Assembly: GCA_029261195.1 (NCBI GenBank)
Contig: JAJDBU010000043.1
Span: forward strand, 1 to 41,353
Direction of reading: 5' to 3'
Length of the DNA: 41,353 nucleotides
From: Nitrospirota bacterium
GTDB taxonomy: Bacteria; Nitrospirota; Nitrospiria; SBBL01; JAADHI01
In this document: positions 27,010 through 39,312 of the stretch, piece by piece
Layout: each line of letters begins with the position of its first letter
Position numbering within the stretch: position 1 is the first letter of the stretch
Notes under the pieces: generated by a model
Told to the model about the DNA's origin: nothing
Databases searched by the model: none
Seen by the model: the letters and a program-made list of their open reading frames with translations, nothing else
Position numbers and translations under genes: made by a program

Positions 27010-28581
27010 TTAATACTCTGCTGTCTTCTGCCCGGCCATAAACAAAAGAAAGATGACCATCATGCCGTAAGCCCCGGCCAGGAGTGTGGGCATCGTTGAT
27101 TCCACATGCCAGGGGAAAAAGAGTTGTCCGTCCGGAAAAGGAGAATGGATGACACCGAATAGGGAAAGCAGGGCGGCCAGCCCTAAGAAGGCTGCCGCTC
27201 GTTTAAGACGTCTGTCGATAATTAAAACCAAGGCCGCTCCCCAAAGCAGAGAAGAGATGATAAAACCGTTTGCAATCAGCACGATCATTTGAAAGCTTGT
27301 CGCTGTTTCACCTGTAAGGTCTGCGGCCGTTTTTCCGAGGTTTGCCAAAACACCATTCAGTTCAATGAGCACCAGGGCCGCAATTGCGGGCAAGAAGGAA
27401 AAAGCGACGGCCTGATAATGTTTTGAGGGGATGGCTGAAAAGGTCTGTGCCGTGATTTCCAGGCCCACAAAAATCAGGATTGGAGCCAGGGCCGCTTCCG
27501 GGAGCAGATCAGCCATTAAGCCCAAGAAACCAAAGATGCCACCCAGTCCGATAAAGAGCGCTGTCCAGAGGGTATAACCACAGCGTCCTCCCATGCCCTT
27601 GTAGGCAGGGTGGCCGATGTAGGGCGTTGTTTGAACGACACCGCCACACAGACCGCCCAGGAGTGTTGACAGCCCGCTGGTCAAAAGGATGGAACGGGTG
27701 TCGTATTCGTCTCCCGCCGCCTTTGCGCTTTCGGTGACATCAATACCGCCGATGATCACCACGATGGCGAAAGGCAGGGCCAGAGGGAGATAGCTCGAAA
27801 CATAAGAAAGCCCTTCTAAAAAAGAAAAACTCGGTAAAGGAAAGGCGAATTCAATTTCCTGAAGTCTTTGCCCTAAATCGGGCAAGGCCTCGCCCAATCC
27901 AAAAAAACGGCTCAAGTAAGAAACCGTAAGGCCGAGGCCCAGTGCGCCGAGTGCAGCCGGAATCCGGCAGGGAAATGAAATCTTTCCCACGATGCAGGTG
28001 AGAATGACGATCAAGGCGATAAAGCCGGTCAGTGGCTCGTGGAAGATTTTGATCAGGGGTAAAAAGGAGATTAAAAGGAGGGCGACACCTGCAATCGGCC
28101 CGAGCAGGGCGGCGCGGGGAACAGCCTCTTGAATCACCGGGCCTAAAAAGGCGCCGAGTGATTTGGTCAAACCGACAATCACCACCACAGCCATTGAGAT
28201 TTTCCAGGCCAAAACGGGGTCGCCGGTGGCAATATGGGCCGGCCCGATGACACCAAAGATAAATGCGAAAAGAGACGGGGTATCAATCCCCAAGGGCATG
28301 GCGGTGACATCCTGTCTGCCGGTTCTCTTTGCCAGCCTGAGGGCCATGATCGTATACCACAAGTCTCCGGCAAAAACCCCGATGGCCGAGCCGGGGATCA
28401 TCTTGAAATAAACCAGTTCCCTGGGAAAATTAAAAACATTGACCAGGATCGCTGCCATAATGACCAGTTGAGTCATATTATCGACAACCAGGCCGAAGAA
28501 GGCATTGAGATCCCCTTGCCCGAATAGGAGGGGTCTGATTGATAGGGGATACTGGTTTTTACGGGTAGGGGTCTCTTTCAT
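27010..28581 (-). CDS. NCS2-family permease (xanthine/uracil type)
   Basis: This 523-residue polytopic inner-membrane protein has about 12-14 hydrophobic segments. The N-terminal LVVDNMTQLVIMAAILVNVF and GVFAGDLWYTIMALRLAKR, the AMPLGIDTPSLFAFIFG motif and the central IVVIIGGIDVTESAKAAGDE followed by GGLCGGVVQTTPYIGHPAYK match the NCS2/AzgA-like nucleobase permeases. The acidic residue after GGIDVTE is in the usual substrate region. The substrate cannot be read from sequence. The gene stands alone, convergent with the radical SAM cluster. Confidence 0.8.
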   Translation of the reverse strand: MKETPTRKNQYPLSIRPLLFGQGDLNAFFGLVVDNMTQLVIMAAILVNVFNFPRELVYFKMIPGSAIGVFAGDLWYTIMALRLAKRTGRQDVTAMPLGIDTPSLFAFIFGVIGPAHIATGDPVLAWKISMAVVVIVGLTKSLGAFLGPVIQEAVPRAALLGPIAGVALLLISFLPLIKIFHEPLTGFIALIVILTCIVGKISFPCRIPAALGALGLGLTVSYLSRFFGLGEALPDLGQRLQEIEFAFPLPSFSFLEGLSYVSSYLPLALPFAIVVIIGGIDVTESAKAAGDEYDTRSILLTSGLSTLLGGLCGGVVQTTPYIGHPAYKGMGGRCGYTLWTALFIGLGGIFGFLGLMADLLPEAALAPILIFVGLEITAQTFSAIPSKHYQAVAFSFLPAIAALVLIELNGVLANLGKTAADLTGETATSFQMIVLIANGFIISSLLWGAALVLIIDRRLKRAAAFLGLAALLSLFGVIHSPFPDGQLFFPWHVESTMPTLLAGAYGMMVIFLLFMAGQKTAEY

Positions 28582-28729: not shown

Positions 28730-29383
28730 CTATACATTATTTTTTCTTGTGACGACACTCTCTAAGTTGTTTACAAAAAAAGAGAACAAATCCGGATCAA
28801 ACAATTGATTATTCGACTCCATCATTTTTATGGCTTTTCCTGAACTGAGTGCGGCTCGATAGGGCCTGACGCTTGTTAAGGCATCATAGTAATCTATAAT
28901 CCTAACGAGTCTTGCAGCAAGAGGGATGTCTGTTCCGCGCAAACCTATCGGGTAACCACTTCCGTCATAATTTTCGTGATGGCATAAAATGACATCTCTA
29001 ATAATCGGGGTGGACAACAGCGGTTTAATCAAGCGGTAGCCGTATTGCGGGTGATTTTTTATCACCTTATATTCATCTTCCGATAATTTTGAGGGCTTGT
29101 TCAGGATATTATTATTAATCCCGATTTTTCCTATATCATGGATTAGAGCGGCTATTCGAATGAGATCCATTCTATTCCCTTGAAAACCATATTGGTAAAG
29201 GGCAACAAAATTCATCGTCATTTGCGCAGTTCGGTCAGAGTGACTTCCTGTGTATAGATTTTTTAAACTCAGAGAGCGAAACAAGAGCATGGAAACGCTA
29301 TGAGTAAAGCCTACTCTTTCCGAGTTTATATTGTTTTTTTCTACCTGCTGAAGATCTATTTTGGCAAAACTCAAGGTTTCCAT
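28730..29383 (-). CDS. HD-GYP domain protein (c-di-GMP phosphodiesterase)
   Basis: This 217-residue protein is essentially one HD-GYP domain. Metal-binding and signature residues are visible: HSDRTAQM (48-55), LIHDIGKIGI (H82, D83, K86), KNHPQYGY (109-116) and CHHENYDGSGYP (H135, H136, GYP 143-145), then ARLVRIIDYYDALTSVRPYR. All expected residues are present, so hydrolysis of c-di-GMP is likely. There is no sensor domain, so activity depends on a partner or on expression. It begins nine bases after the b561-type cytochrome gene and is probably co-transcribed with it. Confidence 0.88.
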   Translation of the reverse strand: METLSFAKIDLQQVEKNNINSERVGFTHSVSMLLFRSLSLKNLYTGSHSDRTAQMTMNFVALYQYGFQGNRMDLIRIAALIHDIGKIGINNNILNKPSKLSEDEYKVIKNHPQYGYRLIKPLLSTPIIRDVILCHHENYDGSGYPIGLRGTDIPLAARLVRIIDYYDALTSVRPYRAALSSGKAIKMMESNNQLFDPDLFSFFVNNLESVVTRKNNV

Positions 29384-29392
29384 TATTGATCC

Positions 29393-30232
29393 TTATTCAT
29401 CGTCAATCATGTCAACGGGTTTCTTTGAAAAGAATTTATTTCCCGTAAACATCGCAGAGATCAGCCCGCTTTTTTCTTTCACTTCCGTGAAGATAACACC
29501 TGCAATGTGGAAGAGTATGGCAGCTAAAAGTGTATAAAATACAAATACATGAGTCTTTATGAAAGGCTTTCTGAATGCCTTCATTTCTTTGTAACTTTCC
29601 GGATCGACATTGACCTTTGAGTAAGGTTTGATATCAAGGATCTTGCTCTCTTCTCCGGAATTAGCAACCCATGTTGCGATTTCATGACCGAAGGGAGGCA
29701 TATAAAGATCTGTTCCAGCAAGCACAAGCCCTGTGATGGCCTGGACGGCTAACAATAAAAAGAGAAGTGTAACCATTAATTTTGCGATGGGGTTGTGTCC
29801 CAGATGATTAGGCGGGTTATTATTTTTTTCACCTTTTATATATGCAGCAAGTGATGCGCGATATTTTTTTCCAAGGGGCAATATCGACTTCCAAAGGGCG
29901 TGTTTTTTTCCGATAAAGCCCCAGATGAATCGCCAGCCCAGGTTGACGGCAAAGACATAACCGACATAAACATGGATGGTTTTCAAGATGATCTTTCCGT
30001 CGTTTGTGAGCCCGAGACTTTTGCTATTTAGAATCACAATTCCGACGGCGATTAAGGACATGACGCAAAGCACATTAATCCAATGAAAGAGTCTAACCGT
30101 AAGATCCCACACCCGGTAGGCTTTAATCGTTTCCGGTGAATTCATCGCGCGAACCTTCTCAAGCTCTGTGCCGTTTTTTTTTTCAATGTGACTTGATCCA
30201 TTATTTTTAATCCACTCCGATGTCTTTATCAT
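29393..30232 (-). CDS. Cytochrome b561 / Ni-hydrogenase b-type family protein
   Basis: This 279-residue di-heme b-type membrane cytochrome has four main membrane helices: RLFHWINVLCVMSLIAVGIV, KTIHVYVGYVFAVNLGWRFI, IAKLMVTLLFLLLAVQAITG and KTHVFVFYTLLAAILFHIAG. His residues in the first, second and fourth helices (FHW, IHVYVGY, THVFVF...FHIAG) are the expected heme ligands. It would carry electrons between quinone and a periplasmic partner. The loop before the last helix contains TDLYMPPFGHEIATW, typical of the family. It follows the Asp-rich lipoprotein gene and precedes the HD-GYP gene, which suggests one unit. Confidence 0.85.
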   Translation of the reverse strand: MIKTSEWIKNNGSSHIEKKNGTELEKVRAMNSPETIKAYRVWDLTVRLFHWINVLCVMSLIAVGIVILNSKSLGLTNDGKIILKTIHVYVGYVFAVNLGWRFIWGFIGKKHALWKSILPLGKKYRASLAAYIKGEKNNNPPNHLGHNPIAKLMVTLLFLLLAVQAITGLVLAGTDLYMPPFGHEIATWVANSGEESKILDIKPYSKVNVDPESYKEMKAFRKPFIKTHVFVFYTLLAAILFHIAGVIFTEVKEKSGLISAMFTGNKFFSKKPVDMIDDE

Positions 30233-30336
30233 GGCTTGACCTCTACTATTTTCAAATCGTTATTATTTTTAATCGATCTCAGTTTTTTCAACACCTCGGT
30301 AAACAACCTTCGACCTTCCGGCCTTCTTTGAGTAAG

Positions 30337-30362
30337 AGGCCCACCCTGAAAAGGGTGGGCCT
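30337..30362. terminator. Hairpin downstream of the Asp-rich lipoprotein gene
   Basis: AGGCCCACCCT and AGGGTGGGCCT form a perfect 11-bp stem around GAAA, 20 bp after the lipoprotein stop. There is no U-run on either strand. It may reduce read-through into the cytochrome gene or protect the upstream message rather than terminate fully. Confidence 0.5.
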
Positions 30363-30381
30363 CCGGGCTTTCTTAAAGGCG

Positions 30382-31401
30382 CTAGTCGCGTGCGCCCGGG
30401 TTGTCATCAAAGCCGTTCGCACCGCGGTTGTCACCCCGGCGTTCGCTATCATCAAAGCTGTTATCGTTGTCGTCGTCATGATAAAGCTCGACGTTTTGCA
30501 CGATATCGCAGGCCAATCGCTGGAATTTCGTTGGTGTCGCCCCGCATCTTTCGGCGTCACCTGTGAAGGATCCGTTCATATCCCCCACAGTCGGGAAATC
30601 GGCAAAGGCCAGCTTTGAAAAACCGATTGAAGGGTCAATAAAGGTGATCAGGGTGCTGCCATCAACGACAAGCTGCTCTCCCTCAACTAGGTCAATCGGC
30701 ATCTCCAGCTTTCCTTCGATATTACTGAAGAAGACAAAGGCTTGTGTGTTGCCAGCGCCGTCATCCGCAATCCCGGTAATTTTCAGGCTCTTTCCTGCCA
30801 TGGCTACGGCATTGGCAGCATCCAAACTGACATTTGTCGGGAAATCGTCGTTACTGCCGGGACTGTCATCCAAGCTATCATCATTATCATTTTTGTCTTC
30901 GTCCAAATCACCGACTTCCAACTCCAGCTTGTTGAACCGACCATTGGGAACAGTCAGAGAGAAGGTGCCTGCAATACCATCATCGGGGTTCCCAATCAGA
31001 TCAATTAGAAAGGGACCGGCTTCAACCTCATCTTTGACGGCACCGCCTTCATTTTCCAGCTCGACCTCTTCATAGACGAGTAGGGCTTCTGTTAAGCAAA
31101 CAAAAGCTGCTGGATCCGTGGGATTGACTACCTTAAGGTCAAATCCTCTACCATCATTTCCTGGACCACAAACGTCTGGTGCAATAGCTGCAACGGCCTC
31201 TTTTCCTCCAAAGAAGGCCAGCATTGTGTCAAGTTTGCTTTTTGGTGCTGCCGCAACCACCGTTTTTGTCTTCAGGGCGGTCGCGCCCAATTTGATGGCA
31301 TCACCATTTCCTGGACTGCTGCTTCCGCTACTGCCGCAGGCAGTCAGGAATAAAGCCATTAGCAAGGTGGATCCAAATTGTATTGAACGTTTATTATTCA
31401 T
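30382..31401 (-). CDS. Asp-rich lipoprotein, DUF4382-like
   Basis: This lipoprotein (339 residues) starts at ATG 31401, eight bases after GGAG; the longer frame reads through the promoter module. The signal peptide ends in the lipobox LTAC (Cys22), followed by a Ser/Gly linker. The middle (LTEALLVYEEVELE ... FLIDLIGNPDDGIAGTFSLT ... VPNGRFNKLELEVGDLDEDK) follows the beta-rich DUF4382 pattern. Two Asp/Asn-rich segments, DKNDNDDSLDDSPGSNDDF and DDDNDNSFDDS, look like Ca- or metal-binding loops. Mature Cys residues occur in DVCGPGND, FVCLTEA, ERCGAT and LACDI. It is probably envelope-anchored. It is first in a unit with the b561-type cytochrome and carries the shared upstream module. Confidence 0.7.
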   Translation of the reverse strand: MNNKRSIQFGSTLLMALFLTACGSSGSSSPGNGDAIKLGATALKTKTVVAAAPKSKLDTMLAFFGGKEAVAAIAPDVCGPGNDGRGFDLKVVNPTDPAAFVCLTEALLVYEEVELENEGGAVKDEVEAGPFLIDLIGNPDDGIAGTFSLTVPNGRFNKLELEVGDLDEDKNDNDDSLDDSPGSNDDFPTNVSLDAANAVAMAGKSLKITGIADDGAGNTQAFVFFSNIEGKLEMPIDLVEGEQLVVDGSTLITFIDPSIGFSKLAFADFPTVGDMNGSFTGDAERCGATPTKFQRLACDIVQNVELYHDDDNDNSFDDSERRGDNRGANGFDDNPGARD

Positions 31402-31448
31402 ATTATTTTCTCCTCTAAAAGTTGGTTTAATACCTGGTTTTCTTTCCA

Positions 31449-31582
31449 TTTTTGAACCCAAGTTGCCCTGTTCAAGTTCCACTGTAAGCAGTATTGTTTT
31501 CATCGACAATAAAGATCGGGTGGATGATATCGAAATAGGCGGTCAGAGGATGACAGTGCTATTCGACCCTTGTTTTCTGTCG
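31449..31582 (-). promoter_or_regulatory. Shared upstream module, copy 1
   Basis: This stretch aligns along its whole length with 37181-37314 (about 70% identical by eye). Identical blocks include AAGATCGGGTG, GTCAGAGGATG and AGTGCTATTC on the plus strand. In the direction of the lipoprotein gene a promoter-like pair TTGTCG - 17 bp - TACAGT lies proximal. The conserved blocks lie upstream of the -35, where an activator would bind. The frame of the lipoprotein crosses it only by chance. Confidence 0.7.
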
Positions 31583-31811
31583 CCTATCTCTTTCCTGTGA
31601 CGATAGTTTTTGTGTTTATTATTAAATAATGATCAGAATTGATGGACAGACGGGGAGTGAACTTTTGTTTAACTTGTAAAGACTTATCCCTGCATAGCAG
31701 ACAGGCTTCTATGCAGGGATAAGTTGTAAGGGTGTTAAGTGCGGCGCATTTTCTGCGGGTCATCTCAGATGATCTCGCCGTATCGCTTTTGTTTTCAGAA
31801 AATTCAGGTCC
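31583..31811. terminator. Perfect 15-bp hairpin between the two redox units
   Basis: CTTATCCCTGCATAG (31683-31697) and CTATGCAGGGATAAG (31709-31723) pair perfectly around an 11-base loop, about 90 bp beyond the end of the cytochrome-barrel gene. It probably ends or stabilises that operon's transcript. The rest of the spacer shows no gene. Confidence 0.5.
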
Positions 31812-32912
31812 TCAGAAAAGAAGGTATTCATAGGTCAGATCAAACAAGGTTCTGAGAACGAAATCTTTTCTTTGGGTCACCGGCATCTGTACCCCTAATC
31901 CCGTACTCCATTTCAGCCATTTAATCCGTATTTGCGGCACAACGGTACTTAGGGTGTCTCCGCTATTCGGACCATTGATGCGAGATTCATTTGTTATTTC
32001 GATCATCGGAGTGACTTGAAGGCGAGGGTCGGGTTCTATCAGGTAACCCAGTGCCAGGTTATAGCGTACTTTTGCGTTTTCATCAGAGGTCTCAGAGGGA
32101 ATCGTGACCCGGGTATCCACTTGGGTCACAAGGTGGCCTCGTTGCCAGCCCGCGCGAAGGCTGGGTTGCCAAGTCGTCTCACCAGACCCAAGCCCCTTGT
32201 CTTCATCTCCAGTCGGAAATTGAAGTTTTAATCCAGCGGCAACAAGGTAGTTTTGAGCATAATTAAAAGCAAGAACCCGTCTAACCGATATACTGCTATC
32301 CCCAATACCTGAATTTGCCGATTGATTTCGAGGATCAACTCTGGCAGCACTCGTACTCACTTCAATATTGGTTAATCCATCAATCCGGTATTCAATATCA
32401 AGACTTTGAGAAGACTTATTTGTATCCCCCTGGGCAAATTTCCCACCGACAATTATTTCTTGTTCGGGAAAGGCCTTTCCTGTGATCAAAGGGCGAGGGA
32501 AGTTAAGAGCTCCAGTGAGCCATTCCTGATCCTCGCAAAGAGTTTTAACAAAGCCGGCAACATCGGAAATTTCCTGTTTGCTTAGCTTATCTCCCCATGC
32601 AGGCATGACGCTTGACCGCCCGCTATAAGTGCCGCCCTCTCGAATAATTCCTTCAAGGACTTCAACCGGATCTTCAGCAGTGAGGCGGCAATCCGTCAGA
32701 TTAGCGGGTTGCACCGGAAGACTTTGGGACAGTAGGCCATCTCCTTTGGCAGTCGAGCCATGACAGATGACGCAGTTCTTATCGAACAAGGACGCCCCGC
32801 GCAGAATATCTCCGATTTCCCCGAAACCTGTCAGCGGGAAGCCGAAAAAGAGAATCAATCCAAATCCGCTGATCATCCCGATTACCATATGTTTTCTTTT
32901 TAGTTTGTTCAT
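31812..32912 (-). CDS. Cytochrome c fused to an outer-membrane beta-barrel
   Basis: This 366-residue protein has three parts. There is a signal peptide (MVIGMISGFGLILFFGF), a class-I cytochrome c domain at about 35-130 and a beta-barrel at about 135-366. The heme site is CVICH (C47, C50, H51) and the likely sixth ligand is M103 in SVMPAWG; C75 and C126 could form a disulfide. The barrel part alternates polar and apolar residues (NYLVAAGLKLQFPTGDEDKG, SLRAGWQRGHLVTQVDTRVT, VPQIRIKWLKWSTGLGVQM) and ends in Phe (DLTYEYLLF), the outer-membrane insertion signal. It would put a heme at or in the outer membrane. The architecture resembles Cyc2, but this barrel is much shorter. It is the last gene of the operon begun by ccdA. 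Confidence 0.78.
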   Translation of the reverse strand: MNKLKRKHMVIGMISGFGLILFFGFPLTGFGEIGDILRGASLFDKNCVICHGSTAKGDGLLSQSLPVQPANLTDCRLTAEDPVEVLEGIIREGGTYSGRSSVMPAWGDKLSKQEISDVAGFVKTLCEDQEWLTGALNFPRPLITGKAFPEQEIIVGGKFAQGDTNKSSQSLDIEYRIDGLTNIEVSTSAARVDPRNQSANSGIGDSSISVRRVLAFNYAQNYLVAAGLKLQFPTGDEDKGLGSGETTWQPSLRAGWQRGHLVTQVDTRVTIPSETSDENAKVRYNLALGYLIEPDPRLQVTPMIEITNESRINGPNSGDTLSTVVPQIRIKWLKWSTGLGVQMPVTQRKDFVLRTLFDLTYEYLLF

Positions 32913-32946
32913 TTCACTTCCTCCCTTGTTCATTTCACTCCCTCCA
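32905..32946 (-). repeat. Tandem duplication of ribosome-binding site plus start codon
   Basis: Two 21-bp units (32905-32925 and 32926-32946) differ at two bases. Each carries GGAGG-AGTGAA followed by ATGAACAA on the minus strand, giving two in-frame starts (32933 and 32912) with equally good ribosome-binding sites. The longer product only adds MNKGGSE before the signal peptide, so I use 32912. Confidence 0.85.
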
Positions 32947-32974
32947 AGGATGTTGTTATGCTCTTAATTGAATG

Positions 32975-33925
32975 TTACTTTTCTTTCAAATTTTCGTCCC
33001 GTTTGCACCAGAAACGAACTTCCTCCTCCTCGAGAAAGAATTCCGCTTCTTCTCCCTGTAACATGGCCAGAGTAGAAAGTAATCCGGCTTCGCTACAACT
33101 TGACGCCGCCACTGTGACCGAATGGGGGGCATTTGGGGCAGGCCAACCTGTACAGGGGTTCAAGATATGGCTATAGCGTAAGCCGTTTTTCAATAAAAAC
33201 CGTTTTGAGTCTCCACTGGTCGCCACAGCGCCCTGTCGAAGCTGAATGACTTTTGTATTTGTGTTGTCCTGGCCCGTATTTTCTATTCCGATATTCCAAG
33301 GTGAATGGTCTCTCTTTTTTCCACTCACGGCGATATCGCCACCCAGATTGACAAGCGCTGCAATCCCGTATCGTTCTTGAAGCAGGAGCGCGATGCGATC
33401 CACTGCATATTCCTTTCCGATTCCTCCCAGATCAATTTCCATTCCCTCAGGCAAACGAATTTCGGGAGACTTCCAGGAAATTTTTTGCCATCCAATTAAG
33501 GGGAGGAGGGCCTCAAGCTGTTCTTGTGTGGGGATACGGTCACTGCCGTCAAATTTCCAGATACGGCGGAGGACTCCGGATGTTACATCGAATAAGCCTT
33601 CACTGATTTCGTAACACTGCTCTGCAAAATCAAGCAATTGTGCAGTCTCTTCATCGACTTGAACGGCCTTTCCCCGACTCCGGTTAATCCGATCAATGAT
33701 GTTTTCCAAACGATAGCGGCTGAATTTACGTTCAATCCGCCATACCTCGCCAGCAGCCAACTTCAACATTTTTTTTGCAGTCATCCTGTTTTCTGTATCC
33801 ATCAGGATTTCACAGTCACAGGCCATGGCCTGAAAATGTCCGACCCAGTGGTTCTCTGCCTGGAACATCTGTGTCGGGTGCAATGGATATGCAGGAGCCG
33901 GATAGTGTTTGAGCATAAGTTTCAT
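32975..33925 (-). CDS. apbE: FAD:protein FMN transferase (ApbE)
   Basis: ApbE (about 316 residues) moves FMN from FAD onto a Thr or Ser of a target protein. Visible family motifs are FSRYRLENIIDRINRSRGKA near residue 68, SEGLFDVTSGVLRRIW near 115, IDLGGIGKEYAVDRIALLLQ near 172, LVNLGGDIAVSG near 200, and GAVATSGDSKRFLLKNGLRY followed by SHILNPCTGWPAP near 240, which holds the metal/FAD site. I see no signal peptide or lipobox at either candidate start (33925 or GTG 33937). That is unusual because most ApbE proteins of Gram-negatives are periplasmic. It directly follows the DUF3570 gene, its likely partner. Confidence 0.9.
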   Translation of the reverse strand: MKLMLKHYPAPAYPLHPTQMFQAENHWVGHFQAMACDCEILMDTENRMTAKKMLKLAAGEVWRIERKFSRYRLENIIDRINRSRGKAVQVDEETAQLLDFAEQCYEISEGLFDVTSGVLRRIWKFDGSDRIPTQEQLEALLPLIGWQKISWKSPEIRLPEGMEIDLGGIGKEYAVDRIALLLQERYGIAALVNLGGDIAVSGKKRDHSPWNIGIENTGQDNTNTKVIQLRQGAVATSGDSKRFLLKNGLRYSHILNPCTGWPAPNAPHSVTVAASSCSEAGLLSTLAMLQGEEAEFFLEEEEVRFWCKRDENLKEK

Positions 33926-33965
33926 GTCCTGTTTCACCCCCTGTTTTATTTCAAGGTGTTTTATT

Positions 33966-35234
33966 TCAAAATGAATATTGAATTTGCAGGATCGTGGCCT
34001 GTAAATCAGGAAAAAGATCCTGATTTTTTTGCAAGCCGATCGCGGTGTCGTGATTGCTGTCACCATCCTGTGTGTAATACTCCAATCTCAGCAGAATGGA
34101 AGACTCGTCCCGGAAATCCCATCCATAGCTCAAACCCACCGTAATCCCCGTAAAGGCTGCCATGCGATAGTCCGCAGTGGCTTCCTTCGGTAAAGGTGCA
34201 TTGTTGCTCAGGCCCACGCGGTAAAAATCGGCTTCGGACTGCTGATAAAACCGCACATGCGGCTCCAGGGAGTGTCGTTCGTTCAATTTCCAGTGGTAGG
34301 TAAAATCCACCGTATGCGAGAGAATCCCCCAGTCATCCGTAAAAAAACGATAGGATGCCCCCAGCACATCACGGGAAAGATGGTAACGGGTCAGCCAGAA
34401 CAGGCTGTGTTTGGTCCGACTTTCCGGCCTGTTTTCAAAGACATAATCGATGGTTGCCCCGGTGCTTCCGTCAACCCGGCTGAGCATTTTGAAGGGATCG
34501 CTGTGGTATCCCGAGGAATGCGAAAGCGAGTAGTTGAGCTGCATCAAGGTTTTTCGGTTGACGACCTGAGTGACTCCGAAAATCGCATCAATTACCGTTT
34601 TTGTTTCGTCCTGATTTTGACGCTTGGGTGCTTGACCTGGACCGAGCATCTTAGACAAGGGGCTAGGAATGCCCCCCAGTGGCGTACTGGTATCAAATTC
34701 TCCGGCTACGCCAAAAGTCAGTGTGGTATTACGTTGATTTAAATCCCTGGAAACCGAAGCGTTGAGACCAATCGATGAAAAATCAAATTCTTTGGAGAAG
34801 TTGAGTCCCACTGTCCCTAGGGTTAAGCGGTTAAGCGGCTGTGTCCACGATCCACTTAAGCCAACACGCGTATCAAGAAAGGTATCATCTAAAGGGATTT
34901 CCCCCGCTGCAATCGTGTATTCACCATCGCCTGAAGGTCGGGTAAAGGTCTGAGGGACATTACTAGGCGACGCACCGTTCGGGGTCGCACCCGTAAGGGA
35001 ATCGATGACCAGTTTAAAATGGGCAAAGCGTTTCCCGGAAAATTCTTTGCTTAGGTTTAAAGTGGGCTCAATGGCTGTCACCCGCTTGTCGGATTCCTGA
35101 TAGTAGAGAATGGAGGTGTCAATCTCCCAGCCTTCAAATTCACCCGCCGAGGCCGCCGAGGCGGCACCCAACAATCCAAGGGTTGCCGCAGCGAGTCGGG
35201 TTTTCAATCGTTTATTTTTTTTAATTGCACCCAC
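33966..35234 (-). CDS. DUF3570 outer-membrane beta-barrel with flavinylation motif
   Basis: This protein (422 residues) is chosen to start at GTG 35234, eight bases after GGAGG. A signal peptide is visible (RLAAATLGLLGAASAASA). The mature part is a series of amphipathic beta strands and ends in Phe (ILQIQYSF), so it is an outer-membrane barrel. At 78-84 is DSLTGAT, followed by PNGASPSN; D-x-x-[ST]-G-A-[TS] is the motif to which ApbE attaches FMN, with Thr84 the expected site. Motif and neighbour (apbE) agree, but flavinylation of this family is my inference. The family is otherwise uncharacterised and commonly neighbours DUF4266 proteins. The start overlaps the DUF4266 gene by 14 bp. Confidence 0.8.
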   Translation of the reverse strand: MGAIKKNKRLKTRLAAATLGLLGAASAASAGEFEGWEIDTSILYYQESDKRVTAIEPTLNLSKEFSGKRFAHFKLVIDSLTGATPNGASPSNVPQTFTRPSGDGEYTIAAGEIPLDDTFLDTRVGLSGSWTQPLNRLTLGTVGLNFSKEFDFSSIGLNASVSRDLNQRNTTLTFGVAGEFDTSTPLGGIPSPLSKMLGPGQAPKRQNQDETKTVIDAIFGVTQVVNRKTLMQLNYSLSHSSGYHSDPFKMLSRVDGSTGATIDYVFENRPESRTKHSLFWLTRYHLSRDVLGASYRFFTDDWGILSHTVDFTYHWKLNERHSLEPHVRFYQQSEADFYRVGLSNNAPLPKEATADYRMAAFTGITVGLSYGWDFRDESSILLRLEYYTQDGDSNHDTAIGLQKNQDLFPDLQATILQIQYSF

Positions 35235-35460
35235 AGCCGCCGCCTCCATAGCTACGTCCGCCACTTGATGCTTCTTTACTGAAATAAATGTGATCGTCAT
35301 ATGAGGATTGAACCGGCTTTGGATCGAGTTGCATGGCCTCTTGCGCCAGGAGATCGTGCTCCCAGGGCTTGACGCCCATGCCCGCACAGCCGCTAAAAAG
35401 CGCTAAGGCGCTGAGAAGAAAACAAAATCGTATCTTGTGAAGTTTTATCCGATTATTCAT
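35221..35460 (-). CDS. DUF4266 lipoprotein with Gly-Cys tail
   Basis: This 79-residue lipoprotein has its lipobox as LFSGC (Cys25). The conserved body is VKPWEHDLLAQEAMQLDP and the end is HIYFSKEASSGGRSYGGGGC followed by GCN, so C76 and C78 form C-x-C behind five glycines. The family is uncharacterised; the tail suggests metal binding, a disulfide or an attachment site. The Gly codons GGAGGCGGCGGC also form the ribosome-binding site of the DUF3570 gene, so the two are translationally linked. TlpA, encoded just upstream, is a plausible reductant for the C-x-C. Confidence 0.82.
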   Translation of the reverse strand: MNNRIKLHKIRFCFLLSALALFSGCAGMGVKPWEHDLLAQEAMQLDPKPVQSSYDDHIYFSKEASSGGRSYGGGGCGCN

Positions 35461-35485
35461 TTTATTGTCCCTTGTTTTAACAAAG

Positions 35486-35995
35486 CTATTTCTTCAATAA
35501 ATCGAGAATTTGTTTCTCGTAAAGTGGCTTCATGCCAGGAATATAACCAATATGCCGGTGACGAATAATGCCTTTCCGATCGATGATATAGGACATGGGC
35601 ATACCGGCCAGTTGATATTTATCAGCAAGGTCACCGGAGGGGTCGAAACGAACCGTCAAATCGACCGGATGTTTGAGGAGAAATTTATCAGCCAAACCTC
35701 TTGTTTTATCCAGATTGATTGTGACGACTTTCAAACCCCGGGCCTCGTATTTTTCATGCAGTTGCTGCATCCAGGGAAAAGACTCTTTACAGGGCGTACA
35801 CCATGAGGCCCAAAAGTCCAGATAAACGACCTTGCCCCGATAGTGTTCGGCCTCAAACAGGCCCTTCTCTGAAAGCGCAGGGCCGCCGGGAAAAGCCCCT
35901 GCAAAAGCCATTCGCATTAAGGTGAGATAAATGATCAGTATCATCATCAGCAAACTCAGTCCCTTGATTCGGATATCTATTTTTCTATGCACCAT
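35486..35995 (-). CDS. tlpA: TlpA-family thioredoxin-like protein
   Basis: This 169-residue membrane-anchored or exported thioredoxin has an uncleaved or cleaved N-terminal hydrophobic segment (LSLLMMILIIYLTLMRMAFA). The fold is AlkyC/TlpA type: YLDFWASWCTPCKESFPWMQ with active Cys66 and Cys69, LKVVTINLDKTRG, and LAGMPMSYIIDRKGIIRHRH carrying the cis-Pro. It should act in the periplasm as a thiol reductant, taking electrons from CcdA encoded in the same operon. Targets could be the apocytochrome CVICH or the DUF4266 C-x-C. Confidence 0.9.
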   Translation of the reverse strand: MVHRKIDIRIKGLSLLMMILIIYLTLMRMAFAGAFPGGPALSEKGLFEAEHYRGKVVYLDFWASWCTPCKESFPWMQQLHEKYEARGLKVVTINLDKTRGLADKFLLKHPVDLTVRFDPSGDLADKYQLAGMPMSYIIDRKGIIRHRHIGYIPGMKPLYEKQILDLLKK

Positions 35996-36018
35996 TTTAA
36001 GATCCCCCTCCTGTTTAT

Positions 36019-36393
36019 TTATTCAAATGCCCATAAGGCGATGATGTTGTCGTCCAGATCAATGATCCCCTGAAAGCTGCCACGACTTGCAGCCAAATCA
36101 ACCCTAAGCCCTGAAAGTCTTGCCCCTAGTTCCTGGGCCTGCCGGGTTTTTTCTTCCAGTTGATCGACACAGAAGTAAAGCACCGGGGCCTCCCCTTGTT
36201 GGATTCCCGGTTCCACTTTCCGCAAGCCCCCGATCAATTCACCATCGACCTCTATCATGCGATAGTCGGGCAGGTTCGGAAGAGAGAGCCTTAAAAATTT
36301 CCAAGCCAGTAATGTCCGATAAAAGTGCTCTGCACGCTCAAGATCTGAAACGGGAAGATCAAACCAATATGTTTTTCCTTGTGTTTTATTCAT
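36019..36393 (-). CDS. VOC/glyoxalase-superfamily protein
   Basis: This 124-residue single-module VOC protein begins MNKTQGKTYWFDLPVSDLER, has YRMIEVDGELIGGLRKV near residue 44, APVLYFCVDQLEEKTRQAQE near 71 and ends in IIDLDDNIIALWAFE. It matches the small 'glyoxalase-like' proteins with no fixed function. It has no signal peptide and should be cytoplasmic. It is encoded between ccdA and tlpA, with short gaps on both sides. Its role in the operon is unclear. Confidence 0.8.
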   Translation of the reverse strand: MNKTQGKTYWFDLPVSDLERAEHFYRTLLAWKFLRLSLPNLPDYRMIEVDGELIGGLRKVEPGIQQGEAPVLYFCVDQLEEKTRQAQELGARLSGLRVDLAASRGSFQGIIDLDDNIIALWAFE

Positions 36394-36424
36394 TTTGTTA
36401 CCTTTTTTCTACTTGCTTTATCCC

Positions 36425-37168
36425 TTACTGCCCAATCACCCAGCCAAGGCCCATCTCAGTAAAATAGGAGGTCAAATAAGTAAGGGAGTTCGTAAAAATC
36501 AAGACACCCACGAGCACAAGAAAGGCGCCACTTGCGCGAGAAATCCAGTTCATATATTTTGCTGTCTTTTTAAAATAGACCAGGAAGGTCTGAATTCCGA
36601 CAGCGGATAGCAAGAGCGGAAGGCCCAGGCCAAGAGAATAAACGCCCAGCAGTTCAATCCCGGTGAGTACAGAACCCGAAGTGCTGGCATAAACCAGAAT
36701 CGACCCAAGAATCGGACCCACACAGGGTGTCCAGCCTGCACCGAAGGCGATACCAATGACATAGGATCCCAAATAACCTGCCGGCCTGCTCTTAAAATGA
36801 AAGCGGGCATCGCGAGCCAAAATGGCAAACTTAAATAGGCCCATGATATAGAGTCCGAAAAAAATGATGAACACCCCGCCGATCTGCCGGATGGTTTCCT
36901 GATTTGAGAGAAAGAACTGGCCGATATAGGTTGTCGAAGCCCCTAAGAGCATGAAGATGCTTGAAAAGCCCAGAATGAAGAGAATGGAATTTTTTATGGC
37001 AATCTCGTGCATTCGTTTAATATCTTTCGAGGAACTGAGATCATCCAGAGAAAGCCCCGTAATGTAGGAGACATAAGAAGGGACGAGGGGTAAAACACAG
37101 GGCGAGATAAAGGACAAAAACCCTGCCGAAAATGCAATCATGAAAGATATATTTGCTGTCGCTTCCAT
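36425..37168 (-). CDS. ccdA: CcdA-type thiol-disulfide transporter
   Basis: This 247-residue inner-membrane protein has six helices. Two conserved Cys sit in ISPCVLPLVPSYVSYITG (Cys24) and GAGWTPCVGPILGSI, the redox pair that moves electrons from cytoplasmic thioredoxin to periplasmic partners. ATG 37168 follows AAGGAG by seven bases; the longer frame to 37207 lacks such a site. It supports cytochrome c maturation or TlpA reduction, and here heads an operon with tlpA and a cytochrome c gene. The shared upstream module copy 2 lies directly ahead. Confidence 0.92.
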   Translation of the reverse strand: MEATANISFMIAFSAGFLSFISPCVLPLVPSYVSYITGLSLDDLSSSKDIKRMHEIAIKNSILFILGFSSIFMLLGASTTYIGQFFLSNQETIRQIGGVFIIFFGLYIMGLFKFAILARDARFHFKSRPAGYLGSYVIGIAFGAGWTPCVGPILGSILVYASTSGSVLTGIELLGVYSLGLGLPLLLSAVGIQTFLVYFKKTAKYMNWISRASGAFLVLVGVLIFTNSLTYLTSYFTEMGLGWVIGQ

Positions 37169-37180
37169 TTTAATTCTCCT

Positions 37181-37314
37181 TTTTTGAAAAAGTGTTGCTC
37201 TGTTCAAATCCTATTGTAAGTGGTCTGTGTTTAATCGGACACGAAGATCGGGTGTATGACATTGAAATAGACCGTCAGAGGATGCAAGTGCTATTCAAGC
37301 CTTTTTTACTGTCG
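37181..37314 (-). promoter_or_regulatory. Shared upstream module, copy 2
   Basis: It aligns with 31449-31582 and precedes ccdA. Reading toward ccdA, the proximal part has TACAAT as a good -10, with the -35 position (TGTCCG) 17 bp upstream matching TTGTCG of copy 1. The identical blocks AAGATCGGGTG, GTCAGAGGATG and AGTGCTATTC (plus strand) lie further upstream. It ends about 15 bp before the sensor kinase frame on the plus strand, so it occupies the divergent promoter region. Confidence 0.7.
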
Positions 37315-37328
37315 ATCATCTGTTTTTA

Positions 37329-38549
37329 ATGCCGATTAAATTTGTATGCTGTTACTGTATAGTTATAAAAAAATTTCTGGCAACAAGAGAAGTGAGCGTT
37401 CGTTTAATGGATCGTACAAACAAAGAAAAAGTCTATTGGGGTATCTGGCCGACACGTCGAAGTTTTATAATTTCAATCATTATTATGGCCATTTTACTGG
37501 GGGCGTTCAGCGCCTGGTTTGAACTCCTGGTTGAGGAACCCCCCGAGTTTTTCCAATCGTTCTATCTAGAACTGCCTGTTAAAATTTCAGAATTTCTTCT
37601 CAAACTCTGCCCTCTACTTATCCCCTTCTACCTCTGGCTTGATCAAATCAGAACATGGTCTGTCTGGAAGCGGTTTTCATTGTTTGTTGTGCTGAGTCTG
37701 GCTGCCACTGTGATTGAGGAACTCGTTACTTATTCTCTGCCCCTACTCAATCTCCATCAATTTGATACAGAGCACTCACTTTTCCTCGTTTTTCTTTCCT
37801 TTGACATGATCGGGGATGTGCTGCTCTTCCTGTTTATCCTTTCAGCTCTGGGCTATGTGGATTTCCTCTTATGCCGCAATCATCGCCTTTTTACTCGACT
37901 CTCTGAAGAAAAAACAAAACTGATGCAGGAAGAACGATTAAGGCTTCTCTCTGAGTTAAAAGCGCTTCAAGCCCAAATCAATCCCCATTTTTTGTTTAAT
38001 ACGCTCAACAGCCTGGCAGCGCTGGTTGTGACCAATGCCGAAAAAGCGGAAATTTTGATCAAGGATTTATCAGACTGGTATCGCGATATCTTGGGTGCAA
38101 CACATCAGACCTCCTGGGCCATTAGGGACGAGATCCAGTTGGTCCGTAATTATTTAAAGATAGAGTCCGTTCGTTTGGGAGAGAGATTATCTTATGAGAT
38201 CCAATGTAATGAAGAGACTCGGGAGGTCTCCATTCCGCCACTCATTGTACAGCCTGTTGTGGAAAATTCGGTCAAGCATTCCATCTCCCCCTCTCTTTCC
38301 GGAGGGAAGATTTTAATCCGAATTGAAGGCACACAGGAACAGTTTCGTATACGCGTGACTGATACCCGAAAAAAGGATGATTTTTCACCGGAAAAACAGT
38401 GTGTTCCGGGAACGGGATCGGGTCTGGATAATGTAAAGAGACGCTTGGAACTGGCCTTTGAGGGTCGCGCTCATTTCAACTTTCAGCTGAAGAAGGAGGG
38501 TGCAGTGGTGGAAATTGTCGTTGATAGAGGGACATCCAATGGGAAATAA
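37329..38549 (+). CDS. LytS-type sensor histidine kinase
   Basis: This protein has 406 residues from the longest start; ATG 37407, which drops 26 unremarkable residues, is at least as likely. Four membrane helices lie at about 46-67, 87-104, 115-134 and 150-173. A coiled region (SEEKTKLMQEERLRLLSELK) leads into the His_kinase domain LQAQINPHFLFNTLNSLAAL with His220 as phosphate acceptor. An N box (VQPVVENSVKHS) and G box (GTGSGLDNVKRRLEL) complete the ATPase. No periplasmic sensor domain is present, so the signal is probably sensed in or near the membrane. It overlaps the start of the response regulator gene by 11 bp. Confidence 0.88.
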   Translation: MPIKFVCCYCIVIKKFLATREVSVRLMDRTNKEKVYWGIWPTRRSFIISIIIMAILLGAFSAWFELLVEEPPEFFQSFYLELPVKISEFLLKLCPLLIPFYLWLDQIRTWSVWKRFSLFVVLSLAATVIEELVTYSLPLLNLHQFDTEHSLFLVFLSFDMIGDVLLFLFILSALGYVDFLLCRNHRLFTRLSEEKTKLMQEERLRLLSELKALQAQINPHFLFNTLNSLAALVVTNAEKAEILIKDLSDWYRDILGATHQTSWAIRDEIQLVRNYLKIESVRLGERLSYEIQCNEETREVSIPPLIVQPVVENSVKHSISPSLSGGKILIRIEGTQEQFRIRVTDTRKKDDFSPEKQCVPGTGSGLDNVKRRLELAFEGRAHFNFQLKKEGAVVEIVVDRGTSNGK

Positions 38550-39312
38550 TTCAATCATCAGAACCGTCATTGTAGACGATGAACCCCTTGCGCGGGTTGG
38601 ACTCAATCATCTTCTCAAAAGCATCCCTCAGGTGGAGGTAATCGCGGAAGCTGCCAATGGATTTGAGGCGCTTGAACTGGTGGATCGATTCAAACCCGGT
38701 CTTCTTCTCCTGGATATCCAGATGCCAGGCATCAACGGCTTTGAGGTCTTGCAGCAACTCTCCCACATGCCGATCGTGATCTTTACGACAGCCTATGACC
38801 AATATGCCCTCAGAGCCTTTGACACACTTGCAATCGACTATCTGTTAAAACCGATTCGCCTGGAGCGTTTGCAGAGGGCCATTACAAAGCTGGGTTCCCT
38901 GGATCACATGATCACGAATTTAGGGCCGATCTTAAACCCAGTGGAGCACCGTAATAATCATGAAGTCAGTTATCTGAGACGCTTCGTCAGTCGATCAGGC
39001 GTCAAGTGGCATCTGATTAATGAGGATGAGATCTGTCTATTCTTCTCTGAAGAAGGCTACAGCTACATGAAAACAGAAAAGGGCAGCTATATTATCAATG
39101 ACACCTTACAGACGCTCGAAGGAAAACTGGATCCGGATAAATTTTTACGGGTCCATCGCTCTGCAATCGTTGCAGTGAAAGATATTCAAAAGATCAAATC
39201 CTTAGGTTCAGGGCGTCTCGAACTCTTGATGCGGGATGGATCGACTCAGGATGTCAGCCGGTCTTACTCACAGAAAGTGAAGAGCATTTGCCTGGCTCAG
39301 GACTTCCATTGA
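38539..39312 (+). CDS. LytTR-family response regulator
   Basis: This response regulator (257 residues) starts at ATG 38539, overlapping the kinase stop. The receiver domain shows VIVDDEPLARVG, LLLLDIQMPGINGFE with the phospho-Asp, VIFTTAYDQYAL and YLLKPIRLERL. The LytTR DNA-binding domain covers about 155-255 (EICLFFSEEGYSYMKTEKGS, FLRVHRSAIVAVKDIQKIKS, DGSTQDVSRSYSQKVK). It would bind paired direct repeats upstream of targets; the module in front of ccdA and of the Asp-rich lipoprotein gene is the obvious candidate. Confidence 0.92.
   Translation: MGNNSIIRTVIVDDEPLARVGLNHLLKSIPQVEVIAEAANGFEALELVDRFKPGLLLLDIQMPGINGFEVLQQLSHMPIVIFTTAYDQYALRAFDTLAIDYLLKPIRLERLQRAITKLGSLDHMITNLGPILNPVEHRNNHEVSYLRRFVSRSGVKWHLINEDEICLFFSEEGYSYMKTEKGSYIINDTLQTLEGKLDPDKFLRVHRSAIVAVKDIQKIKSLGSGRLELLMRDGSTQDVSRSYSQKVKSICLAQDFH

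Follow-up and report, generated by a model that had tools for sequence, protein, structure and literature searches.

Known systems and the locus

Gene clusters that combine a DsbD-family membrane protein, a thioredoxin-like protein, a DUF4266 protein with a CxC tail, a DUF3570 protein, and ApbE, the flavin adenine dinucleotide (FAD):protein flavin mononucleotide (FMN) transferase, have been described as one "DsbD" flavinylation system, and in coexpression experiments in E. coli the DUF3570 protein of Chlorobium luteolum acquired covalent flavin (Meheust et al. 2021, PMC8238504, in the passages drawn on here and below). No other report on DUF3570 or DUF4266 was found in the literature searched, and DUF3570 systems are widespread and unexplained. 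The locus compared here with that system occupies positions 28730-39312 of a window of 41,353 nt, the whole stretch of contig JAJDBU010000043.1 (assembly GCA_029261195.1, a Nitrospirota bacterium) that was analysed, and comprises two minus-strand units and a divergent LytS/LytTR gene pair. Its DUF3570 protein is probably flavinylated inside the cell before export, a sequence-based proposal that is new as far as could be found.

The first minus-strand unit begins with ccdA (36425-37168), which encodes an inner-membrane thiol/disulfide electron carrier of the DsbD_TM type (Pfam PF02683, 1.8e-17), followed by a gene for a small glyoxalase/VOC-like protein (36019-36393; Pfam Ble-like_N, 1.9e-6), tlpA (35486-35995), encoding a membrane-anchored thioredoxin-like protein with a WCTPC motif (Pfam AhpC-TSA/Redoxin), and a DUF4266 lipoprotein gene (35221-35460; Pfam PF14086, 5.8e-22) whose product ends in the tail GGGGCGCN. 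The gene for the DUF3570 protein, the ApbE target and a predicted outer-membrane barrel (33966-35249; Pfam, 442 bits, 2.5e-132), overlaps the 3′ end of the DUF4266 gene at its start and is followed by apbE (32975-33925; Pfam PF02424, 5.3e-71) and a cytochrome-barrel fusion gene. A preliminary description of this DNA had named the families of the locus, all of which were confirmed in place by Pfam and NCBIfam; absent from it were the VOC-like gene and an HD-GYP-type gene at the 28730 end.

Judged by gene content and motifs, the stretch from ccdA to apbE belongs with the published DsbD-type system: the DUF3570 protein has the [S/T]GA[S/T] motif, apbE is linked to it, the DUF4266 protein has a C-terminal CxC, and TlpA and CcdA are encoded in the same unit. 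The core is not new. The preliminary description knew of no account of the whole set as one system, but such an account exists for this core; the cytochrome-barrel fusion and the second unit are local additions. Compared with the published system, this locus has in addition the VOC gene, the fusion, the LytS/LytTR pair, and a second unit headed by a copy of the upstream module; its ApbE lacks a signal peptide, a point outside the passages of that paper drawn on here. By analogy with the C. luteolum protein, the DUF3570 protein of this locus would carry covalent FMN.

Joint occurrence across genomes bears out the core and little else. In 79 DUF3570 loci, a set skewed toward near relatives of this DUF3570 and with some loci cut by contig ends, DUF4266 was found in 77, TlpA in 66, ApbE in 63, CcdA/DsbD in 5, b561 in 1, and the cytochrome-barrel fusion in none. 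TlpA, DUF4266, DUF3570, and ApbE are thus widely found together, as the preliminary description had expected, and its flavin-based envelope redox system stands, whereas its union of that system with heme-bearing parts is not supported. The tail GGGCGCN is present in all 77 of 77 DUF4266 homologues. OFTM336, a Nitrospirota metagenome-assembled genome (MAG) of the same family, has the order ccdA-VOC-tlpA-DUF4266-DUF3570-apbE with a divergent LytS/LytTR pair; its DUF3570 is 75% identical, its syntenic ccdA 80%, and the VOC-like counterpart, at the equivalent position between tlpA and ccdA, 52%. The fusion and b561 were not found in the OFTM336 locus, nor at full length in that genome.

Searches of 396 genomes from the phylum and of 58 relatives showed this DUF3570 type to be rare there, and since most of its close relatives are gammaproteobacterial, horizontal transfer is likely. 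Carriers include culturable marine bacteria (Paraglaciecola, Alteromonas, and Moritella). At 2475-8659 of contig 27 (L064), the genome under study holds a second, distant DUF3570, accompanied by a signal-bearing ApbE and a pair of TlpA-like genes.

A predicted barrel with a conserved flavinylation site

The DUF3570 protein appears from structure prediction to be a 16-strand outer-membrane barrel with a conserved flavinylation site that faces the lumen at the predicted outer mouth. This element appears to be new, and the word "barrel" is absent from the main text of the 2021 paper (PMC8238504). An AlphaFold2 model built from a 59-sequence alignment gave a 16-strand barrel with a predicted local distance difference test (pLDDT) score of 89.9, and Foldseek matched that model to the outer-membrane barrels OmpG, AlgE, and FadL; a DUF3570 profile search against PDB sequences gave no match. 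Of the two copies of TGAT in the protein, the first ("LTGATPNGA") is conserved and the second ("STGATIDYV") is not, [ST]GA[ST] being present in 72 of 81 DUF3570 homologues. The conserved copy comprises residues 86-89 (34983-34994, minus strand), with Thr89 as the predicted acceptor.

In the model, [ST]GA[ST] lies at the end of strand 3 (residues 74-90), and residue 89 faces the lumen by parity. The site is placed at the outer mouth on the assumption that the long loops point outward, as they do in other barrels of the outer membrane. Conserved positions are concentrated on the long-loop side, among both strand residues (30/114 versus 12/108 on the other side) and loop residues (31/141 versus 0/23). 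The leader of DUF3570 (residues 15-28, about 35166-35207, minus strand) is conserved in sequence, with the family consensus L-x-x-A-T-C-x-L-L-G, which is unusual for a signal peptide; L19, A22, L26, and L27 are conserved at about 90% or above in 59 sequences. Such a leader might be read by ApbE or by an export chaperone.

Probable flavinylation before export

The core motif was located in 60 of the 63 linked ApbE proteins, where it starts after a median of 19 residues, and no hydrophobic segment precedes it in any of these 60; the ApbE of this locus likewise lacks a hydrophobic leader. A leader-like segment is present in 66 of 72 partner DUF3570 proteins, and all eight ApbEs used as controls, of which six belong to relatives whose DUF3570s are distant and two to this genome, have a hydrophobic leader. 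Since the linked ApbEs lack a signal peptide while DUF3570 is exported, flavinylation probably precedes export. The published coexpression fits this order, as DUF3570 from a signal-truncated construct was flavinylated in E. coli though mostly insoluble (PMC8238504). A review holds that ApbEs for secreted targets are themselves secreted and mentions cytosolic ApbEs whose targets are cytosolic (PMC12052999); a search covering few subscription papers found no cytosolic ApbE reported to act on an exported target. If ApbE does act before export, this runs counter to the usual view of the enzyme as periplasmic, and Sec and BAM would have to let through a protein with a bulky covalent cofactor.

Flavinylation in the periplasm, either by another, signal-bearing ApbE or by the linked ApbE after export along an unrecognised route, is the unlikely alternative. 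It agrees with the export of characterised ApbEs for exported targets (PMC12052999) and with three further ApbE genes in this genome, both of those with scored N-termini carrying leaders. Against it, the signal-less ApbE is the one retained next to DUF3570 in Nitrospirota, Gammaproteobacteria, and Zixibacteria alike, and the largely insoluble, signal-truncated protein made in E. coli was flavinylated all the same.

Proposed mechanism

From the gene set, the conserved TGAT, the invariant CxC tail of DUF4266, and the signal-less ApbE, all of which are read directly from the sequences, we infer the remaining steps as follows. The cytosolic ApbE would place FMN on Thr89 of the unfolded DUF3570 precursor, which would pass Sec and BAM and fold into a 16-strand outer-membrane barrel with FMN in the lumen, close to the outer mouth. 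Electrons would run from cytosolic thioredoxin over CcdA and TlpA to the C-terminal CxC of DUF4266 and then to FMN, which would hand them to an external acceptor. The acceptor would most likely be a metal ion, Fe or Cu, and flow in the opposite direction is also possible. A monoheme cytochrome-barrel gene would have been added after apbE in this lineage, and the unit of b561, Asp-rich lipoprotein, and HD-GYP protein would have come to share control with the first unit, probably by the divergent LytS/LytTR pair, once a promoter region was duplicated. Cytosolic flavinylation, an exported flavin barrel, a CcdA-TlpA-DUF4266 relay, and optional cytochrome and b561 additions together form what we consider, with some confidence, the best explanation of the locus.

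Several points weigh against this explanation. For this genome its support is computational, signal peptides were assessed by scanning for hydrophobic segments rather than with SignalP, and other signal-bearing ApbEs of the genome could flavinylate DUF3570 after export. The topology of DUF3570 was assumed from general barrel rules, with long loops outside and termini periplasmic, and a metal substrate is deduced from neighbours in other taxa. On the regulatory side, direct LytTR repeats spaced at 20-23 nt in three upstream regions were no better than in shuffles (P 0.25-0.9), so no LytTR binding site is claimed.

If the flavin does lie near the outer mouth of the barrel, it would offer electrons a way through the outer membrane that needs no multiheme cytochromes. 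A barrel flavinylated in the cytosol, exported with its FMN, and fed by the CxC tail might then be a flavin counterpart of the porin-cytochrome conduits (PCC) of the MtrAB type, partnered here by the cytochrome-barrel fusion, a comparison put forward tentatively. As in those conduits, electrons would cross the outer membrane; unlike in them, there is no multiheme cytochrome, and the DUF3570 barrel is predicted to bear a flavin instead.

Possible metal chemistry and neighbours elsewhere

Neighbouring genes in other taxa favour an outer-membrane role for the cassette in metal redox chemistry, as do the VIT1 iron-transporter genes reported beside the published system (PMC8238504). In 15-18 loci of Alteromonadales, genes for a cupredoxin, a membrane permease, and a small, possibly barrel-like protein lie within a few kb of the cassette together with genes of response-regulator type (L081, L083, L091, L093, L098, L102, L106, L108, L125, L126, L136, L139, and others), a conserved module and possible metal uptake partner. 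Seven other loci (L100, L103, L104, L105, L107, L137, and L152) have an MsrPQ-like pair, consisting of a molybdopterin oxidoreductase and a ferric-reductase-like membrane protein, near the cassette.

The same neighbours could be taken further, to a system for handling copper or another metal instead of sending electrons outward, in which the DUF4266 CxC and TlpA would hold metal ligands in the reduced state and the barrel with its flavin would reduce or gate the metal in uptake or detoxification. The invariant GGGCGCN tail, the cupredoxin and permease genes of Alteromonadales, and the VIT1 neighbours (PMC8238504) are in keeping with it. No metal gene adjoins the cassette in the window, however, the permease has no Pfam match, and the link is seen in one order. 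This version is considered unlikely.

The fusion and the second unit

The fusion gene (31812-32933, minus strand) begins 41 nt past apbE and encodes a monoheme class I cytochrome c with CVICH as its CxxCH motif and a conserved Met (SVMPAW), followed by a Phenol_MetA_deg barrel (Pfam Cytochrome_CBB3, 6.4e-10, and Phenol_MetA_deg, 6.8e-7). Its layout resembles that of Cyc2 (PMC8406198), with a single CXXCH in an N-terminal monoheme c-type cytochrome, a C-terminal outer-membrane barrel, and about 370 residues. It differs in its full class I domain with conserved Met, in its type of barrel, and in lacking the motif AXPXFAR[Q/K][T/Y] upstream of CXXCH, where it has GDILRGASLFDKNCVICH; the motif is absent from both full-length orthologues as well. 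As this motif defines Cyc2, the fusion was not assigned to that family. A single-sequence AlphaFold2 model (pLDDT 35.9) was too poor for comparison with the 16-strand porin of Cyc2. The two orthologues come from about 400 Nitrospirota genomes (G024, 53%, and G239, 48%), and no DUF3570 was detected in either genome. A tandem, near-identical 20-nt repeat at 32905-32945 spans both the start codon of the fusion and its ribosome-binding site, giving two possible starts.

The second minus-strand unit has its own start and encodes an Asp-rich lipoprotein (30382-31401; lipobox LTAC), a prokaryotic cytochrome b561 (29393-30232; Pfam PF01292, 1.9e-31), and, last, a protein with an HD-GYP-type domain (28730-29383; Pfam HD_5, 1.4e-30; HHENYDGSGYP motif). 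The lipoprotein matched no Pfam or NCBIfam family and had no full-length homologue in 58 relatives. The b561 homologue of G023 has no similar lipoprotein alongside and lies on a different contig from the DUF3570 of that genome. The only b561 case of the 79 loci is a gammaproteobacterial Bermanella MAG (L127), in which b561 and DsbD genes are divergent from the cassette, a single but suggestive arrangement. We read the fusion and the b561 unit as optional partners rather than core parts. A gene for a large membrane protein of 523 aa (27010-28581), with no Pfam match at 1e-5, adjoins this unit.

CcdA and TlpA had been thought to supply thiol chemistry for heme attachment, which the surveyed loci do not support: TlpA is in 66 of 79 cassettes, and an open reading frame with CxxCH lies within 4 kb of DUF3570 in just 6, some of them probably by chance. 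Because TlpA stays in the cassette regardless of cytochromes, it is better tied to DUF4266 and DUF3570, as the 2021 paper proposed (PMC8238504). A single co-regulated heme/flavin conduit, in which b561 would pass electrons by way of the lipoprotein to the DUF3570 and cytochrome barrels and CcdA and TlpA would serve heme attachment, is very improbable. For all the adjacency of its parts, their common upstream module, and the Bermanella case, the fusion and b561 occur in 0 and 1 of 79 loci, the fusion has orthologues in genomes without DUF3570, full-length homologues of the lipoprotein are missing from relatives, and TlpA is retained where no cytochrome gene is nearby.

Shared upstream module and regulation

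The two minus-strand units had been said to share one upstream module, which proved correct: 169 nt with 72% identity lie before ccdA (37177-37345, minus strand) and before the Asp-rich lipoprotein gene (31445-31613, minus strand), and a whole-genome search found these two places only (second copy E = 1.2e-21, the rest noise). The module stops short of the probable start codons and, in front of ccdA, spans the intergenic region, so it is most simply explained as a promoter region that was duplicated. The sequences support shared control of the second unit with the first through this duplication, as had been suggested, short of proof.

Within the module, a dyad of the form TYGAATAG-N20-CTATTTCRA (TTGAATAG...CTATTTCAA at 37262-37298 and TCGAATAG...CTATTTCGA at 31530-31566) keeps its pairing through a compensating, two-sided change between the copies, and 2 of 100 column shuffles were equally good. 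As a possible operator or hairpin, it is to be preferred to the LytTR half-sites. No Rfam family was found in the module, a two-sequence RNA fold of the copies was weak, and promoter and terminator scans gave no more matches than in shuffles.

Divergent from ccdA on the plus strand are genes for a LytS-type histidine kinase (37329-38549; Pfam His_kinase, 2.1e-25), whose true start may lie downstream of 37329, and a LytTR response regulator (38500-39312). The domains of this pair, as first described, were confirmed by Pfam and NCBIfam, and OFTM336 keeps the order and the divergence from the target, with a 70% identical regulator. The pair probably controls the two units. It resembles BtsS/BtsR in joining a His_kinase-type kinase and a LytTR-type regulator in one operon, and BtsR/LytR is the nearest NCBIfam family to the regulator; the score against the BtsR profile (3.3e-50) is below that equivalog's cut-off. 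LytTR matches in 21 of the 79 loci reached 27-35% only, are probably other response regulators, and were left uncounted. The LytS homologue of OFTM336 (L060:12226-13553) is split into two overlapping frames, by a frameshift in the MAG or an assembly indel.

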